From assembly GCF_000177675.1 (NCBI RefSeq), contig NZ_ADGX01000056.1:1-52563 (forward strand): a stretch of DNA of 52,563 bases, given 5' to 3'. Below are positions 45,101-52,563 of the stretch, piece after piece. This DNA is from Parafrankia sp. EUN1f. Its GTDB lineage: Bacteria; Actinomycetota; Actinomycetes; Frankiales; Frankiaceae. Numbering within the stretch: position 1 is the first letter of the stretch; the number at the start of each line of letters is the position of its first letter. The notes under the pieces are model-generated. The model was given only the letters and a program-made list of their open reading frames with translations. It ran no database searches and was not told the DNA's origin. Both the position numbers and the translations under genes were made by a program.

Positions 45101-46021
45101 CTCGTCGGGGTTGAGCTTCTCCCGGAAGCGGGCGAGCTGAGCGGGAGTTGCGTCTTCCTCGAACGCACGGACCAGCTCGATCCGCTGTGAGTGAGCGGTG
45201 AGGAACTCGCGGTAGTCGTCGGTCGAGAATGGATCAGCGCTCAGGATGACGCTGTACGCGAGGGTCTGCGTCGTCGCGATTTCCTCGTTCGCGCGAACGA
45301 GGTGATCGGCGGCGTTGACGCTGCGCAGCAGCGCCGGATCGTCATTTCCCTGGGGGATCAGGACCACCAGATCGATCAGGGAGGTGATCAGGGGTGAATA
45401 GGCGGCGCGCACCGAGCTCGGGTCCGCCATGCTGGTGCTGGCCTTGCGCAGGTTGGCCAGATGGCCCAGGGCGTTGGTGGTGTCACGCAGCGAGTTGCGG
45501 ACCTCGGGCCCGAAGGACCCCTCGTGCCGCTTGACGATGTTCTGGTAGCTGGTGAGCGCGTCGTTCGTCGCCGTCTGCCGGGCGGCCACGGAGGCCACGG
45601 CACTGCTCCCGCTGCCGCCACCGCTGCTGCTGCCGCTGGAGGCGATCCTGCCGGCGGTGTAGGTCCGCTCCTCCTGCAGGGCGTGGACGAGGGTGGACGC
45701 CGATCGGTTGATCTCGATGAGGTCGCGGATCCGGTTGACGTCCCGAGTGCTGGTCAGCACGGAGGCCGCCTGGATCGAGGAGTTGACCAGGATGGCCACG
45801 ACGGGCACGGCGAGAATCGCGATCAGCTTGGTGCGTACCCGCCAGTTGGTCGGGTCGGTCACCGTCTGACGAAGGCCGCGCCCACCGGCTCGTTCCGGTC
45901 GTGGCGGCGTCGGGGGCTGGTCGCCGTGGTGTCCGTTGTCTTCCACGGACGAACCAGCGGCAGCCATGGGCGGCTGGTCTGTGGCCATGCCCGTGCTGCT
46001 GGCCATCGGTTGTCTGCGCAC
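42195..46021 (-). CDS. cvnA: Conservon sensor kinase-like protein CvnA, frameshifted
   Basis: The GTG at 46021 is preceded by GAAGG. TM1 (AILAVPVVAILVNSSI) and TM2 (GLLIVFILASALLAAVVVA) flank a nitrate/nitrite-sensing-type helical outer domain. A HAMP-like segment, the DHLATRMRRNNESLL helix and an ATPase domain follow (IAELLENATSYSPP; IEIEDQGIGMP; GLFAVGRLASRHGI). After RLPAKLVTGDSG the first frame loses sense. The family C-terminus (SVSAWFQRR, GLPVRVPMTHLVPG, AVGGRLASFYQGVRQGR) continues in another frame, requiring one extra base between about 43940 and 43800. The run G5-C-G5 at 43815-43825 is the likeliest place. The Pro-rich tail has TDTGGF and QQAPV repeats. Confidence 0.85.
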
Positions 46022-46431
46022 GTACCTTCGCAACCTCTCCGCCAGCCTCCCGGAACAGGTCGTACCAGGATGGCTCGGTATCGGGCCCGGATGTCCCTCA
46101 CAACGCACCTTAGCGGGACGTAGTGAGCATCCGAAAGGCGCCCACCGTACGCCCGTTGTGGGTCACGGGCCAGTTGTGGGCGGTTTGCGCCCGAGTTTGT
46201 CACCGATGCCCATCTCGGTGGGCACTGTGGGTCGAGCTGATCCATGGGTTGGCCGCATCGATCGCGGGTGAGGACGTTCATGGACCTTTCGATCGGATCA
46301 CGCATCACGGTCTTCGCGAGTCCTTCGCCGGTCGGTTCGTCCGGACGAGCCGAAGACGTCTCCAATGTGCCGCCGCCGGGCGGCGCGCGCCACCCGGCAC
46401 GCATCCGCGTCGGCGTCCGTAGGCTTGATGA
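46022..46431. other. Divergent control region of the conservon and guaA
   Basis: About 410 bp, no gene. On the minus strand TAAGGT (near 46112) could be a -10 box for the cvn operon. GTTGTGGG occurs at 46154-46161 and 46173-46180. The guaA -10 box lies at the right end. Confidence 0.35.
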
Positions 46432-46434
46432 GTG
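46420..46434 (+). promoter_or_regulatory. Leaderless -10 box for guaA
   Basis: TAGGCT (46420-46425), 6 nt, then GTG at 46432; TCCG precedes it as at tsaB. No ribosome binding site. Confidence 0.55.
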
Positions 46435-48035
46435 AACGAGTCACCTCGTGGCAGCTATGGCTCCACCGATGCACATCCCGGATACGACACCGTTCTTGTG
46501 ATCGACTTCGGTGCGCAGTACGCCCAGTTGATCGCTCGCCGTGTGCGTGAGTGCCATGTGTACTCGGAGATCGTCCCGTGGGATATGCCGGTCGCGGAGA
46601 TCCTGGCTCGCCGTCCGGCAGCGTTGATCCTTTCGGGCGGCCCGAAGTCGGTCTACTCGCCGGGCGCCCCGCGGGTCGATCCGGCCCTCTTCTCCGCCGG
46701 GATCCCGGTCCTCGGGATCTGCTACGGCCACCAGGTGATGGCCCAGGCGCTGGAGGGGACGGTCGCGCGTACCGGCACCGCCGAGTACGGGGCGACCCGC
46801 CTGCAGGTGAGCGACCCCGGAGTGCTCTTCGACGGGCTCGCCGTCTCCCAGCAGGTGTGGATGTCCCACGGTGACTCGGTGACGGCGGCGCCCCCCGGGT
46901 TCAGGGTGACGGCATCGACCCCGTCGACGCCGGTCGCGGCGTTCGAGGATCCCGATCGTCGCCTCTACGGCGTGCAGTTCCATCCCGAGGTCGTCCACAG
47001 CGAGCGGGGGATGGACGTCCTGCGTCACTTCCTGCTGGCGGGAGCGGGCTGCCGGCCGTCCTGGACGATGCTCAACATCGTCGACGAGGCGGTTGCCGCG
47101 GTGCGCAAGCAGGTGGGCGGCGGTCGCCTTATCTGTGGTCTGTCTGGCGGCGTCGACTCGGCGGTGGCGGCCGCGTTGGTGCAGCGGGCCGTCGGGGATG
47201 CGTTGACCTGCGTGTTCGTCGACCATGGCCTGCTCCGGGCGGGGAGGCCGAGCAGGTCGAACGCGACTTCGTCGCCTCGACCGGCGTCGAACTGGTGCAT
47301 GTGAAGGCGGCCGACCGGTTCGCGGCGGCGCTGGCCGGTGTCACCGATCCCGAGCAGAAGCGGAAGATCATCGGCCGTGAGTTCATCCGGGTCTTCGAGG
47401 AGGCCGCCCGGGAGCTCGACGCGCGGGCCGAGGCCGAGGGCGCCAGGATCGGATTCCTTGTGCAGGGCACGCTGTATCCCGACGTCATCGAGTCCGGCTC
47501 ACCGACCGCGGCAAAGATCAAGTCCCACCACAATGTCGGTGGCCTTCCCGACGACCTGCAGTTCGCGCTGGTCGAGCCACTGCGCACGCTTTTCAAGGAC
47601 GAGGTCCGCCACCTCGGCGAGGAGCTCGGGCTTCCCGAGGAGATCGTCTGGCGCCAGCCTTTCCCCGGGCCCGGGCTCGCCGTGCGGATCATCGGAGAGG
47701 TGACGCCCGAGCGGCTCGACATCGTGCGCGCCGCCGACGCGGTGGTCCGCGAGGAGATCCGCCGGGCCGGGCTCGACCGCGAGATCTGGCAGGTCTTCGC
47801 GGTGCTGCTCGCGGATGTTCGATCAGTGGGGGTCCAGGGTGACGAGCGGACCTACGGTTGCCCGGTGGTTCTTCGTGCCGTGACCAGTGAGGACGCGATG
47901 ACGGCCGACTGGGCCCGGCTGCCTGCCGCGTTGCTGGAGCGCATCAGCAACCGGGTCGTCAACGAGGTGCCGCAGGTGAACCGGGTCGTCTACGACATCA
48001 CGTCGAAGCCGCCCGGCACGATTGAGTGGGAGTAA
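46432..48035 (+). CDS. guaA: GMP synthase (glutamine-hydrolysing), frameshifted
   Basis: The glutaminase domain has [20 protein letters not shown], the nucleophile in [13 protein letters not shown] and HPEV. The ATP pyrophosphatase P-loop is [15 protein letters not shown]. After [12 protein letters not shown] the frame breaks at 47240-47247 (GCGGGGAGG): one more G gives [20 protein letters not shown] and then open sequence to PGTIEWE, about 534 residues in all, the family length. As given, the first frame stops at 47302-47304. All domains are otherwise intact, and the enzyme makes GMP from XMP, so this is probably a sequencing undercall rather than a dead gene. Confidence 0.9.
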
Positions 48036-48047
48036 GGCGATCGGTTT

Positions 48048-48079
48048 CGGTGTAGCCGGCTGGTCCGCCGGCTACACCG
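48048..48079 (+). terminator. Terminator after guaA
   Basis: CGGTGTAGCCGGC (48048-48060) pairs perfectly with GCCGGCTACACCG (48067-48079). Confidence 0.75.
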
Positions 48080-48642
48080 CCGGACCGTCGACGGCGGCCT
48101 CGGCGCAAGGTGTTGGGAGTTACATGTCCCTATATTGCCGTCAGGTGTCGATCCTCGTGGGTTTTGTGTCGTTTCGTGGCTGTTTGTGGGTTCGCAGTGG
48201 CCCGCCGACATGGCGATGGGCGCCGAAGCATTCCGCGGATGTCCGTCTGGAGGCTCTCCGGGGGTCGACCTCGGTGCGGACTTCATAGGCCTTGTCCGGC
48301 CTAGTCCGGTGCCATCGTGAGCCACCCGCGCTCGGTCGAGACATAGGTTTGGGTGCGCTGGCGGAAGGTATTCCGCTCGGATGTTCGAGGCGAGTTCATA
48401 CGATCCCGGCGGCCGGTGTTTTGTGTCGGGGAGTTGCCGCTCGGTGGCAATAAACCTCGGATGCGATCCGGCGATTCCCCGTGGGGAACATAACGAACCG
48501 GACATTACGGATATTTAGTGGAGTATGACAGTGCTGTCTTCGGCTCACAACGGCGATCCCGTCGGAGTGGAACCGCCCGGTGTCGGGCTGGTCGCGGACG
48601 GCTCTGTCGCCCGGACGAAGCGTCCCCTGCCGGCCGGCCGGT
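48080..48642. other. AT-richer spacer downstream of guaA
   Basis: About 560 bp of lower GC than its surroundings. TTCCCC-GT-GGGGAA (48475-48488) is a perfect palindrome. A 60-codon frame starts at 48525 behind GTGGAG and ends at the same stop as the leader peptide (48707); it could be an alternative, longer leader. No other gene is supported. Confidence 0.4.
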
Positions 48643-48671
48643 TTGACTACGTCCGCGCCGCGGCGCACTCT
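48643..48671 (+). promoter_or_regulatory. Promoter of the threonine dehydratase leader
   Basis: TTGACT (48643-48648), a 17-bp spacer and CACTCT (48666-48671). The predicted start is 6-7 nt on, at the GTG of the leader peptide (48678). Confidence 0.5.
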
Positions 48672-48677
48672 AGAGGT

Positions 48678-48707
48678 GTGCCGCTGTTCCTCATGGTGAT
48701 TACGTAG
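48678..48707 (+). CDS. Candidate leader peptide of a threonine dehydratase attenuator
   Basis: GTG followed by codons for Pro-Leu-Phe-Leu-Met-Val-Ile-Thr and a TAG stop, nine residues. Leu, Val, Ile and Thr are the substrate and end products linked to threonine dehydratase and branched-chain amino acid synthesis. The stop codon touches the first base of the following hairpin, as expected for ribosome-controlled attenuation. It would be translated from a leaderless transcript. It is also the last part of a longer in-frame reading from 48525. Confidence 0.6.
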   Translation: MPLFLMVIT

Positions 48708-48768
48708 GCGCGCGACGCCCGAGAGGGTCGCGCGCCAAGCCCTTCCGCCCATCGGCGGGGGGCTTTTT
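48707..48768 (+). promoter_or_regulatory. Attenuator: two hairpins and T-tract before threonine dehydratase
   Basis: Hairpin 1: GGCGCGCGAC (48707-48716) with GTCGCGCGCC (48727-48736). Hairpin 2, the terminator: AAGCCC-TT-CCGCC (48737-48749) with GGCGG-G-GGGCTT (48754-48765), ending in TTTTT (48764-48768). GAGGG (48723-48727) can instead pair with CCCTT (48740-48744), disrupting both. This is the only terminator with a real T-tract that I found here. Confidence 0.65.
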
Positions 48769-48822
48769 CGTTTGCCGCGGCCGCAGGGGTGAGGTGGCCG
48801 CCGAGCCACCAGGAGAGTGTCG

Positions 48823-50217
48823 ATGACATCACCATCCGTAAGAAGGCCGCCGGCTGACGGCGCCGGGTCCTCCCGCGCGGACGACCCGACCGACGCCGAC
48901 GGCGCCGGAGAACGCCAGGGCGGGGCAGCGGGGGCCCTCGCCCGGATCAGTCCGCAGTCAGCCGTGCCGGCGCCGGAACGCGCCCGAGGCCCGCTGCCCG
49001 CCCACCGCTCGTCCGGTGGGCGCACCGCTCCCCGTGCCCGCGGTTGTGACGCGGCCGGGCTGCGTCCCGCCGGCCTGCCTGCCAGCTCGGGGCTGGCTGG
49101 CACCACTGGCCTGGCTGGCAGCTTCGGCCTGTCCGGTGGTCCTGTCCGCTCTGGCGTTTGCGGCCTGCCGGTCGACCTCGCCGAGGTCACCGCGGCCGCC
49201 GGGTGGCTGGGCGGTGTGGCGCGCCGTACCCGGGTCGTGCCGGCGGCCGGGAGTCTGACCGGGCATGTCGGTGCGCCGGTCTGGCTCAAGTGCGAGCACG
49301 AGCAGCACACCGGTTCGTTCAAGTTGCGGGGCGCGTTCAACCGGATCGCGACCGCGGGGCCGCGGGCACGCGCGCGGGGAGTCGTCGCGGCGAGCGCCGG
49401 CAACCACGCCCAGGGCGTCGCCTTCGCGGCGGCTCACTTCGGCGTCGCCGCGACCATCTTCGTGCCCGAGGGTGCGAACCCGGCCAAGGTCGCGCGTACC
49501 CGCGCGCTGGGCGCCCGCGTCGAGCACGTGCCGGGAGGCGTCGACGCCGCGCTGAGAGCCGCCGACGCCTTCGCCGCCGCCAGCGGTGGGCTGCTGGTCC
49601 ACCCGTTCGACGACGTGGCTGTCATCGCGGGCCAGGCAACGATCGGGCTGGAGCTCCTGGAGCAGGTGCCGGAGCTTTCGACAGTGATCGTCGGGGTGGG
49701 TGGTGGTGGTCTGCTGAGTGGTCTGGCGGTGGCGCTCAGGGGCCTGCGGCCGGACGTTCGCGTGATCGGTGTCCAGGCAGCCGCCGCGCCGGCGTTCGCG
49801 TCGTCCTTTCACACCGGCCGCCGCCTGGTCGTCCCACCGGGCGCTCCCGGTACCGGCACGGGCTCCGGCACCGATGCCTGCCAGGCCGGGGCAGCCACGG
49901 GAACCGTGGCCGACGGCATGGCGGTCGGCGCGCCCGGCCGGCTTACCCTGGCACTGGCCGAACGGCTGGTGGATGACGTCGTCACGGTCGACGAGGACGC
50001 GTTCTGGGAGGCGATGGTCGCGCTGCGGCGGTCGGGCCACCGGGTGGAGCCCGCAGGAGCCGCCGGTGTCGCGGCCCTGCTGCGGATGCCCCGGCTCGCC
50101 CACGGCGCCACGGCGGTGGTGCTCTCCGGCGGCAACCTCGACCCCGCGGTGGACGCGAGGGTGGCCGCGCTCGCGGCCGGCGCGTCCGCGGGCGCTCGGA
50201 CGAACGCGCCTGGGTGA
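48823..50217 (+). CDS. ilvA: Threonine ammonia-lyase (threonine dehydratase), PLP-dependent
   Basis: 464 residues from the ATG at 48823, behind AGGAGAG. The first 110 residues are disordered, with Gly-Leu repeats (SGLAGTTGLAGSFGL). The catalytic fold has PLP Lys167 in HTGSFKLRGAFNR, SAGNHAQGVAFAA, and the phosphate loop VGVGGGGLLSGLAVAL. There is no C-terminal ACT domain, so no direct allosteric feedback by isoleucine is expected; the upstream attenuator may replace it. A Gly/Thr/Ala insert lies at about 340-363. Serine/threonine racemase or catabolic dehydratase are alternatives, but the leader's Ile/Val/Leu/Thr codons favour isoleucine synthesis. Confidence 0.88.
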   Translation: MTSPSVRRPPADGAGSSRADDPTDADGAGERQGGAAGALARISPQSAVPAPERARGPLPAHRSSGGRTAPRARGCDAAGLRPAGLPASSGLAGTTGLAGSFGLSGGPVRSGVCGLPVDLAEVTAAAGWLGGVARRTRVVPAAGSLTGHVGAPVWLKCEHEQHTGSFKLRGAFNRIATAGPRARARGVVAASAGNHAQGVAFAAAHFGVAATIFVPEGANPAKVARTRALGARVEHVPGGVDAALRAADAFAAASGGLLVHPFDDVAVIAGQATIGLELLEQVPELSTVIVGVGGGGLLSGLAVALRGLRPDVRVIGVQAAAAPAFASSFHTGRRLVVPPGAPGTGTGSGTDACQAGAATGTVADGMAVGAPGRLTLALAERLVDDVVTVDEDAFWEAMVALRRSGHRVEPAGAAGVAALLRMPRLAHGATAVVLSGGNLDPAVDARVAALAAGASAGARTNAPG

Positions 50218-50363
50218 CCGCGTCCGGGGTGAAAGCGTCCGGACCCGAGCGCCGACCCGCGGGCCGAGCATGGAAGTGTCGGACCCGCCCGGCATCATGG
50301 CGCTGTGGTTGACCTGGCCACCGCGTCGGGCGGTTCGTCCGTCGAACGTACGATCGAGGTCTG

Positions 50364-52563
50364 ATGAGCACTCTTTTCGACGACACCTTTGGCCCTGAAT
50401 CGCTGGTCGACGGTCTGGCGCCCCTTGGCGGTGCGGGCTCGCGGGAGGGCGCGGCGGCCGGCGGCGGTGCGGCGCGCGGCGGGGCCGCCGGCGGCGGTCG
50501 GGCGTCGGGCGACTTCGGCCCGGCGGTGCTCGAGGCCGGAGCGGGTCGCCCCAGGCCGCCTCGTCTCGACCCGGGCGAACTGCTGGAGGGGCTCAACCCG
50601 CAGCAACACGCGGCGGTGGTGCACGCGGGCGCGCCGTTGCTCGTCGTCGCCGGTGCGGGCTCGGGCAAGACCCGGGTGCTGACCCACCGCATCGCCTACC
50701 TGCTCGCGGCGCGTGGCGTGCGGCCGGGCGAGATCCTCGCGATCACGTTCACGAACAAGGCCGCAGGGGAGATGAAGGAGCGCGTCGAGGCGCTCGTCGG
50801 CGGGCGGGCCAGAGCGATGTGGGTGAGCACGTTCCACTCGGCCTGCGTGCGCATTCTGCGTTCGGAGGCGGCGCGGCTCGGATTCGCCTCCTCCTTCTCC
50901 ATCTACGACGCGGCGGATGCCCAGCGCCTGCTCACGTTGGTCACCCGCGATCTCGACCTCGACCCCAAGCGCCACACCGCCAAGGCGCTCGCGGTGGCGA
51001 TCAGCGCTCTGAAGAACGAGCTCGTCGACTGGGAGACGGCCCGGGACCGAGCCGCGAGCCACATCGAGCGAACCGTCGCCGAGGTGTACGCCTCCTACCA
51101 GCAGCGGCTCGCACAGGCGAACGCGCTGGACTTCGACGATCTGATCATGATGACGGTCAACCTGCTCCAGGCGTTCCCCGACGTCGCCGAGCACTACCGG
51201 CGGCGGTTCCGCCACGTGCTCGTCGACGAATACCAGGACACCAACCATGCCCAGTACGTCCTCGTCCGCGAGCTGGTCGGCCGCCCCGGCCCGGCCGGGA
51301 GCGCGGGGGCGGGATCGGGTGCGGCGGAGGGCCAGCCCGGCACGGGCGGCGACGAGGGCGCGGGGCCGGCGGGAGCAGGCCACGGCGGCGGCGGTCCGGT
51401 CCCCGCCTCCGGGGCCGTACCGCCGGCGGAGCTGTGCGTGGTCGGGGACGCCGACCAGTCGATCTACGCCTTCCGCGGGGCGAACATCCGCAACATCGTC
51501 GAGTTCGAGCAGGACTACCCGAACGCGGCTGTCATCCTGCTGGAGCAGAACTACCGGTCCACCCAGACGATCCTCTCCGCGGCGAACGCGGTGATCGCGC
51601 GCAACGCCCAGCGCAAGGCGAAGCGCCTGTGGTCCGATGCCGGTGACGGCGAGCGGATCGTCGGCTTCGTCGCCGACAACGAGCACGACGAGGCCGCCTT
51701 CGTCGCGGAGGAGATCGACCGCCTCAGCGACGACAAGCTCGCCCGGCCGGCGGACGTGGCGGTCTTCTACCGGACGAACGCCCAGAGCCGAGTGTTCGAG
51801 GAGATCTTCATCCGGGTCGGGCTGCCGTACCGGGTGGTCGGCGGCGTCCGGTTCTACGAGCGCCGCGAGATCCGTGACCTGCTCGCCTACCTGCGGGTGC
51901 TGGCGAACCCGACGGACACGGTGAACCTGCGGCGGATTCTCAACGTTCCGCGCCGCGGGATCGGTGACCGCGCCGAGGCGATGATCTCGGCCTTCGCGGA
52001 GCGCGAGCGCATCCCGTTCGCCGACGCGCTCGCCCGGGTGGACGAGGTGCCCGGGGTGGCGACCAGATCGGCCCGGTCGGTCCGGGACTTCGTGGCGCTG
52101 CTGGGCGATCTGCGTGACCTGCTGCCGAGCGGCCCGCTGGCCGTGATCGAGGCCGTGCTGGAGCGGACGGGCTATCTCTCCGAGCTCGTCGCGGAGGACA
52201 CCATCGAGGCCCAGGGGCGGGTCGAGAACCTGCGGGAGCTCGTCGGGGTGGTCCAGGAGTTCACCGAACGGCGTCCCGACGGCAGCCTGGCCGAGTTCCT
52301 GGAGCAGGTCTCGCTCGTCGCGGACGCGGACCAGATCCCCGACGACGACGGCTCCGACGGCGTCGTCACGCTGATGACGCTGCACAGCGCGAAGGGTCTG
52401 GAGTTCCCGGTCGTGTTCCTCACCGGGCTGGAGGACGGTGTCTTCCCACACCTGCGCACGCTCGGGGATCCGACCGAGCTGGAGGAGGAACGGCGGCTGG
52501 CGTATGTGGGTGTCACCCGGGCCAGGGCACGGCTGTACCTCACCCGGGCCCAGGTCCGCAGCG
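50364..52563 (+). CDS. pcrA: UvrD/PcrA-type DNA helicase (cut by window end)
   Basis: 733 residues are present; the frame is open to the edge. The N-terminal 75 residues are Gly/Ala-rich. Helicase motifs are in order: Q-motif LNPQQHAAVVH, Walker A AGAGSGKT at 96-103, ITFTNKAAGEMKERV, Walker B VDEYQDT at 287-293, GDADQSIYAFRGA from about 361, EQNYRST, and VTLMTLHSAKGLEF, then EEERRLAYVGVTRAR. It is an SF1A 3'-5' helicase for repair and replication. A Gly/Ala/Pro-rich insert of about 50 residues (305-357) separates motifs II and III, which is unusual. The missing end should hold the C-terminal tail. Confidence 0.95.
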   Translation, partial: MSTLFDDTFGPESLVDGLAPLGGAGSREGAAAGGGAARGGAAGGGRASGDFGPAVLEAGAGRPRPPRLDPGELLEGLNPQQHAAVVHAGAPLLVVAGAGSGKTRVLTHRIAYLLAARGVRPGEILAITFTNKAAGEMKERVEALVGGRARAMWVSTFHSACVRILRSEAARLGFASSFSIYDAADAQRLLTLVTRDLDLDPKRHTAKALAVAISALKNELVDWETARDRAASHIERTVAEVYASYQQRLAQANALDFDDLIMMTVNLLQAFPDVAEHYRRRFRHVLVDEYQDTNHAQYVLVRELVGRPGPAGSAGAGSGAAEGQPGTGGDEGAGPAGAGHGGGGPVPASGAVPPAELCVVGDADQSIYAFRGANIRNIVEFEQDYPNAAVILLEQNYRSTQTILSAANAVIARNAQRKAKRLWSDAGDGERIVGFVADNEHDEAAFVAEEIDRLSDDKLARPADVAVFYRTNAQSRVFEEIFIRVGLPYRVVGGVRFYERREIRDLLAYLRVLANPTDTVNLRRILNVPRRGIGDRAEAMISAFAERERIPFADALARVDEVPGVATRSARSVRDFVALLGDLRDLLPSGPLAVIEAVLERTGYLSELVAEDTIEAQGRVENLRELVGVVQEFTERRPDGSLAEFLEQVSLVADADQIPDDDGSDGVVTLMTLHSAKGLEFPVVFLTGLEDGVFPHLRTLGDPTELEEERRLAYVGVTRARARLYLTRAQVRS

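Follow-up and report, generated by a model that had tools for sequence, protein, structure and literature searches.

A putative isoleucine-sensing leader of ilvA in the Frankia family has counterparts upstream of cimA in other actinomycetes

The ilvA locus and its leader

The window, by which we mean the whole 52,563-nucleotide stretch of Parafrankia sp. EUN1f DNA analysed here, carries an ilvA gene preceded by a compact leader, the features of which are collected in Table 1. The two promoter hexamers are separated by 17 bp, and a GTG at position 48678, 6 nt past the -10 hexamer, opens a short reading frame (GTG CCG CTG TTC CTC ATG GTG ATT ACG TAG) whose stop codon occupies positions 48705-48707. 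Hairpin 1 starts at the G of this TAG and folds with about -23 kcal/mol, while the terminator hairpin folds with about -20 kcal/mol. An initial annotation of the region had described the promoter, the leaderless GTG geometry, the nine-residue reading frame, the stop codon at the base of hairpin 1 and the T-tract terminator, and all of these are present in the sequence, with the transcript start being a prediction. The stretch delimited there folds more stably than 200 of 200 shuffled sequences (z -3.3). In a consensus scan of positions 46000-51000, no promoter (0.2 expected) and two terminators (2.0 expected) were found; the element does not stand out by single-sequence consensus scans alone, and it is regarded as more than a chance arrangement because it is conserved across 32 distinct leaders of the family (see below).

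Table 1. Features of the ilvA leader region and their conservation among the distinct leaders of the Frankia family
Feature	Position in window	Strand	Remark
-35 hexamer TTGACT	48643-48648	+	TTGAC in 32/32 distinct family leaders
-10 hexamer CACTCT	48666-48671	+	CANNNT at 17-18 bp in 32/32; start codon 6-7 nt on in 32/32
Predicted leaderless leader ORF, MPLFLMVIT-stop	48678-48707	+	in-frame counterpart in 32/32
Ile codon ATT, probable sensing codon	48699-48701	+	ATT in 32/32
Hairpin 1, beginning in the stop codon	48707-48736	+	basal helix 100% paired in 32, nearly invariant
Terminator hairpin, directly 3' of hairpin 1	48737-48765	+	helix 95.8% paired; linker 0-2 nt in 32/32
U-tract TTTTT	48764-48768	+	TTTTTT in 26/32 leaders
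Two mutually exclusive hairpins, terminator-to-RBS interval	48777-48810	+	pairings 48777-48782/48796-48801 and 48793-48798/48805-48810
Shine-Dalgarno sequence AGGAGAG of ilvA	48811-48817	+	GGAG-like in 31/32, exception L123
ilvA, threonine ammonia-lyase without ACT domain, 464 aa	48823-50217	+	PF00291 only

The next gene upstream, which we take to be guaA, lies on the same strand and ends about 640 nt before the leader GTG. In the window it consists of two overlapping reading frames in different frames (46432-47304 and 47295-48035, together 46432-48035), which is a frameshift or a sequencing error in the draft genome. A near-perfect inverted repeat (48660-48684) spans the -10 hexamer and the leader start codon; it was considered as a DNA operator and rejected, as by eye it is intact only in the window and one other (L003) of the six leaders of the genus.

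A domain search of the IlvA protein at E 0.001 returned PALP (PF00291) only and no C-terminal ACT-like domain, in agreement with the initial annotation; the domain by which a feedback-inhibited IlvA is recognised was thus not found. The best NCBIfam model, ilvA_1Cterm (TIGR01127), scores 281 bits, below its cut-off of 378.75. The start of ilvA had initially been placed at GTG 48817; we take it to be ATG 48823, since this codon is conserved in relatives.

The leader is conserved in the Frankia family

The IlvA search covered 35 genomes of the family, in 34 of which the protein was found at E 1e-60; an order-wide search gave the same 35 genomes. We read 34 leaders, from family genomes and from the loci of Frankia sp. 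AiPs1 and F. canadensis, whose leaders are identical to those of two family genomes, leaving 32 distinct leaders, all of them upstream of ilvA. Leaders were picked by a pattern that demanded ATT as the Ile codon of Met-x-Ile; all loci matched it (34/34), so that none dropped out. The initial annotation had made its reading depend on conservation of the peptide and hairpins in relatives, and a covariance model (R1), built from 24 leaders including that of the window, indeed matches 33 of the 35 family genomes, in five of the seven genera, at E 3.4e-14 or better. In the two other genera (loci L137 and L138), a leader of this kind was neither recognised by eye nor matched by the model below E 1. 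One leader (L157, genome G011), which lies near a contig end in a genome without an ilvA match at E 1e-60, was kept outside the detailed reading.

Among the 32 distinct leaders, the spacing between the promoter hexamers is 17 bp in 19 and 18 bp in 13, and the start codon follows the -10 hexamer by 6 nt in 24 and by 7 nt in eight. Only the Met and Ile residues of a Met-x-Ile motif are constant in the peptide. The Ile codon is invariably ATT; by comparison, four ORF stretches of the window contain 44 Ile codons, two of which are ATT. The residue before the stop position is Thr in 27 leaders, Asn in three and Ser in two, with the Thr codon varying at its third base, and Leu and Val residues vary. 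Thus, from the initial reading, which matched the Leu, Val, Ile and Thr residues of the peptide to the pathway, only the Ile part stands. Because the Ile codon is kept and those for Leu, Val and Thr are not, we regard isoleucine as the likely signal.

The peptide has nine residues in 25 of the 32 leaders, and in four genomes an in-frame expansion leads to 14, 24, 24 and 34 residues. The reading frames of L125, L126, L136 and L134 are longer by 15, 25, 15 and 5 codons, and the additional codons are partly repeats (e.g. QPLGR/RPLGV). In three of the 32 leaders the stop codon is lost (TAG to TGG), giving peptides of 13, 13 and 15 residues, with the reading frame entering hairpin 1. Most family leaders contain only one Ile codon; all five leaders of one genus, presumably Protofrankia, contain two or three (MPQHIMIIN and similar). 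The distance from the end of the Ile codon to hairpin 1 is 4-5 nt in all 32 leaders.

Could the hairpins be a mere terminator of the upstream gene, taken above to be guaA, with the short reading frame being incidental? The gene's position on the same strand in the window would fit this, as would the short distance from its end to the promoter in Frankia sp. AiPs1 and F. canadensis. However, a promoter with a fixed spacing to the GTG precedes the terminator in 32 of 32 leaders, the gene ends far upstream in the window, the ATT codon and the reading frame are conserved, and the same layout is found before another gene, cimA, elsewhere (see below). We consider this explanation the least probable of those weighed here, to the point of being nearly negligible.

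Pairing and covariation in the hairpins

In hairpin 1, the inner part varies widely in length among the 32 leaders while its folding is kept. Three of the six pairs of the terminator helix have changed on both sides, as read from an alignment (A3, plain MAFFT) in which a few rows are visibly out of register. Covariation in both hairpins had been suggested as a test in the initial annotation; the base of hairpin 1 is nearly invariant. Across hairpin 1, the terminator and the hairpin that follows, 98.1% of the alignment cells are paired, compared to 39-59% with slid partners, and the covariation score was reached by one of 500 shuffles. Counts of further pair types showed no excess over shuffles (422 of 500 reach the same number). 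Rfam returned no match at gathering score in the window and 14 related loci, and a T-box, a riboswitch or another Rfam family was rejected on this basis.

The two hairpins between the terminator and the ribosome-binding site have 98.0% and 96.9% of their cells paired. Their conservation beside the ribosome-binding site and their mutual exclusivity could be taken to mean that the leader acts on translation of ilvA or on mRNA stability through positions 48777-48810 rather than on termination, and polycysteine leaderless reading frames are cited for translational attenuation in mycobacteria in PMC13236596. However, a terminator with a U-tract is present in all 32 leaders, and the two hairpins show only one-sided changes, covariation not being found, so that they were rejected as a proven switch; control at this level seems very unlikely to us. 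A long pairing of the first leader codons with the post-terminator stretch, seen in two folds, was likewise dropped, as by eye it does not recur in other genera.

Two further observations concern this interval. The sequence TTGC[CT]GCGG directly follows the U-tract in 32 of 32 ilvA leaders (48772-48780 in the window), and such a conserved sequence downstream of a terminator is unusual. In L123 (genome G030), the ribosome-binding site and start region are swapped, after the second post-terminator hairpin, for an unrelated sequence with an inverted repeat.

Folding of the terminator arm at different ribosome positions

For each ribosome position, we compared the paired fraction of the terminator arm with that obtained after shuffling the upstream RNA, using equilibrium folding only, which is blind to kinetic or protein-assisted switching. 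With the ribosome released, 0.14 of the arm is paired compared to 0.46 in the shuffled controls (real above control in 0/32), and the corresponding values for 40 cimA leaders (see below) are 0.08 and 0.33. With the ribosome at ATT, an antiterminator was not found: 0.24 of the arm is paired compared to 0.43 (real above control in 1/32), and the terminator still forms at equilibrium with a mean pair probability of 0.95; cimA leaders with the ribosome at Ile gave 0.31 for both real and shuffled RNA. With the ribosome at the stop codon, fully masking hairpin 1, the values are 0.44 and 0.43 (17/32 above control), and 0.32 and 0.30 for cimA leaders.

As a positive control, the same test revealed the antiterminator in five of six E. 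coli attenuators. For thrL, leuL, trpL, ilvL and pheL, 0.60-0.83 of the arm is paired at most regulatory codons, compared to 0.32-0.57 in shuffled RNA, and 0.00-0.09 once the ribosome is placed on the stop codon; hisL is marginal (0.17-0.58 compared to 0.41-0.50). The E. coli "released" values start after the stop codon, without the first leader segment, and are not comparable. The five positive leaders resemble the ilvA leader in placing pathway-product codons and a terminator before the operon, and differ from it in the antiterminator. In addition, these E. coli leader peptides start from a Shine-Dalgarno site, for which the ilvA leader would leave no room if transcription starts where the promoter puts it.

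The initial annotation had assumed class I attenuation, in which stalling of a ribosome at Ile would release the 3' strand of the hairpin 1 stem, and this strand would then pair with the 5' strand of the terminator stem as an antiterminator. By eye, many of the sequences allow short GGGU/GCCC-type pairings of hairpin 1 with the terminator, and antiterminators are proposed for the leaders of Corynebacterium ilvBNC (PMC11857589) and M. tuberculosis ilvB1 (PMC13236596). Moreover, with hairpin 1 fully masked, close to half of the arm is paired on average. However, this value is no higher than in shuffled RNA and the value for the Ile stall is lower than its control, in a test that, within equilibrium folding, detects the E. 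coli antiterminators; a mutually exclusive antiterminator at the stall was not found at equilibrium. We therefore hold the classical mechanism to be unlikely. As arm pairing falls below shuffled RNA upon release and does not rise above it at the stall, while the E. coli controls are positive, the folding model suggests selection for insulating the terminator from upstream pairing and no visible selection for an antiterminator.

The same leader type precedes cimA in other actinomycetes

cimA encodes citramalate synthase, the other entry to isoleucine. Scanning 393 genomes of the class, including the 33 family genomes with the element, R1 found matches at E 0.01 or better in 132. We fetched 60 matches, three of them in family genomes; by gene motifs that we wrote ourselves, 39 lie before cimA, 11 before ilvB and 10 before other genes, the latter including cimA genes that the motifs miss and three genes (at L216, L235 and L236) that we take from motifs to be leuS-like. 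These three leaders have the same layout with Leu codons, and since two of them end in LLLT-stop (L216, MRRPLLLT; L235, MARFLLLT), Thr before the stop codon is not specific to ilvA.

TIGR00977 detects cimA in 107 of the 138 genomes of the class that were searched. Of these, 97 lie outside the Frankia family, and 95 of the 97 could be scanned upstream (G106 is without upstream sequence and G059 without the motif). In 40 of the 95, we found a short reading frame with at least two Ile among its four C-terminal residues, together with a hairpin at the stop codon and a terminator, as against one of 285 shuffled sequences and none of 95 reverse complements. Requiring at least one Ile gave 48/95, 12/285 and 2/95, respectively; the scan criteria were fixed after cimA leaders had been viewed. 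The peptide has 8-9 residues in 37 of the 40 positive leaders, the last Ile is followed by a single codon and then the stop codon in 34, and 35 have a [CT]ANNNT at 6-8 nt upstream of the start; ATT outnumbers ATC by 57 to 32. Examples are MTYRLLIIGRRAG in Acrocarpospora macrocephala, MFYGLLIIGRRAG in Microtetraspora niveoalba and MRTAIIIL in Demequina gelatinilytica. In several genomes the reading frame runs on through the 5' arm of hairpin 1, much as in the published S. lividans ilvB leader.

A second covariance model (R2), built from 31 scan-positive cimA leaders of other families and containing no Frankia-family sequence, matches 32 of 32 ilvA leaders of the Frankia family at E 1e-10 to 1e-3; for four with a long hairpin 1 (L124, L133, L134, L135), the best match covers the 3' part only. 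In the 9.35-Mb host genome, the sole R2 match at E 1 or better is the ilvA leader locus (1.9e-7). Outside the family, R2 matches 78 of 96 cimA loci at E 0.001 (47 of the 65 on which it was not trained) and leaves 18 without a match at this threshold. Within the family, none of 15 cimA loci from 14 genomes was matched at E 1. A position-based count gave 76 of 97 non-family and none of 10 family cimA genes, in a sample of 136 genomes, two short of the 138. Because a model built from cimA leaders recovers all 32 ilvA leaders, matches most cimA loci outside the family and matches none in the 14 family genomes, a single leader type appears to sit on ilvA in the Frankia family and on cimA elsewhere.

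Negative searches help to delimit this distribution. R2 had no match among eight cimA upstream regions of the family or among 21 ilvA loci from other actinomycetes, and at E 1e-4 it did not detect one family genome (G008) that R1 finds. With R1, 34 loci from outside the genera that carry the leader, most of them actinobacterial ilvA loci, gave no match below E 0.1. Of 21 named genomes searched for the leader, 16 were without a match; these 16, chosen for their ilvA, are all presumably Microbacteriaceae. cimA itself is present in the Frankia family, above cut-off in 33 of 35 genomes. In eight upstream regions of these family genes (L194-L199, L201, L202), no leader reading frame or U-tract is evident, and eight family cimA loci (L194-L201) gave no Rfam match at E 0.1. 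A GC-rich block, CGTCGCGCG..CCGG...CCGG..GCGCGTG, lies before family cimA and is conserved by eye in most of L194-L199, L201 and L202.

Relation to described leaders

Leaderless leader peptides are described in PMC8079986 for S. lividans ilvB, leuA, leuS, trpE, trpS, metN and thrS, with MRTRILVLGKRVG as the ilvL peptide, and the ilvB, leuS, trpS and leuA elements are described in PMC1262725. Leaderless translation of an attenuator peptide, which the initial annotation had singled out as special, is thus not unusual in Actinobacteria (PMC8079986, PMC11857589). Among the open-access papers listed highest in our literature searches, with parts of PMC2965389 and PMC4833913 included, none was found on a leader peptide before actinobacterial ilvA or cimA. 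In PMC1262725, the word ilvA is absent from the main text, and threonine operons are reported to have no conserved RNA structure upstream.

Actinobacterial ilvB leaders (S. lividans, PMC8079986; C. glutamicum ilvBNC, PMC11857589; M. tuberculosis ilvB1, PMC13236596) share with the ilvA leader a short reading frame, branched-chain codons, hairpins and a terminator, and in S. lividans and C. glutamicum the reading frame lies at or beside the transcript start, as is predicted for the ilvA leader. Unlike these leaders, that of ilvA has another target, Ile as its constant codon rather than an Ile/Val/Leu mix, mostly 8-9 residues, a gap of only 0-2 nt between hairpin 1 and the terminator, and an antiterminator was not found in it. 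A three-hairpin model is given for C. glutamicum ilvBNC (PMC11857589). Streptomyces leuS and leuA leaders, as described in PMC1262725 and PMC8079986, likewise combine a codon run with hairpins, and leuS also a terminator, but their codons are for Leu, and for leuS the authors report a classical antiterminator. The ilvB-OMG and ilvB motifs (PMC10272879) contain an upstream reading frame rich in branched-chain and Thr codons, as in the ilvA leader, but sit before ilvB, while the ilvA leader matches no Rfam family. For the related ilvB leader of S. coelicolor, PMC1262725 reports that replacing the codons presumed to be regulatory was without effect; by analogy, this result would count against an Ile-sensing model.

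A model for attenuation

An open reading frame with end-product codons, a terminator before the gene and a gene of the same pathway (ilvA in 32/32; cimA for the related leaders), by which an attenuator in the broad sense is recognised, are all found here. Starting from the promoter geometry, the conserved reading frame and Ile codon, hairpin 1, the terminator and the link to the isoleucine pathway that the sequence comparisons show, we infer the start site, leader translation, isoleucine response and read-through step as follows. Transcription would start at or beside the GTG, and a ribosome would start on the 5' end. When isoleucine is plentiful, the ribosome would read ATT, terminate at TAG and leave; hairpin 1 would then fold, the adjacent terminator arm would stay free, and the terminator would form and stop RNA polymerase before ilvA. 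When isoleucine is short, the ribosome would wait at ATT, which ends 4-5 nt short of hairpin 1, and cover the base of this hairpin, such that more polymerases would read through into ilvA. The position of the ribosome on the base of hairpin 1 may well matter, as suggested by the nearly fixed distances between the Ile codon, hairpin 1 and the terminator. Several observations weigh against the model: the folding test revealed no antiterminator, most family leaders have a single Ile codon, the stop codon beside hairpin 1 is lost in three of 32, and further pair types do not exceed shuffles. On balance, we consider it quite probable that the leader is a ribosome-sensed transcription attenuator of ilvA responding to isoleucyl-tRNA.

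A wider proposal is put forward tentatively, with more doubt than confidence. Actinobacteria might hold a large, undescribed family of isoleucine leaders that attenuate without an antiterminator, in which hairpin 1 would serve as a ribosome-gated insulator stacked on the terminator, masking of its base would let polymerase pass, and the device would have been exchanged between cimA, in most of the sampled lineages, and ilvA, in the Frankia family. If there is truly no antiterminator, the leader would depart from the textbook switch and, at about 90 nt, would be a very compact system for studying how a stalled ribosome prevents termination.

What is new is a leader type shared by ilvA in the Frankia family and cimA in other actinomycetes. 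It assigns putative isoleucine control to an IlvA without the usual feedback domain, in the plant-associated Frankia family. Because a very similar leader precedes cimA across actinomycetes, this control seems to be tied to the entry into the pathway and not to a gene family.
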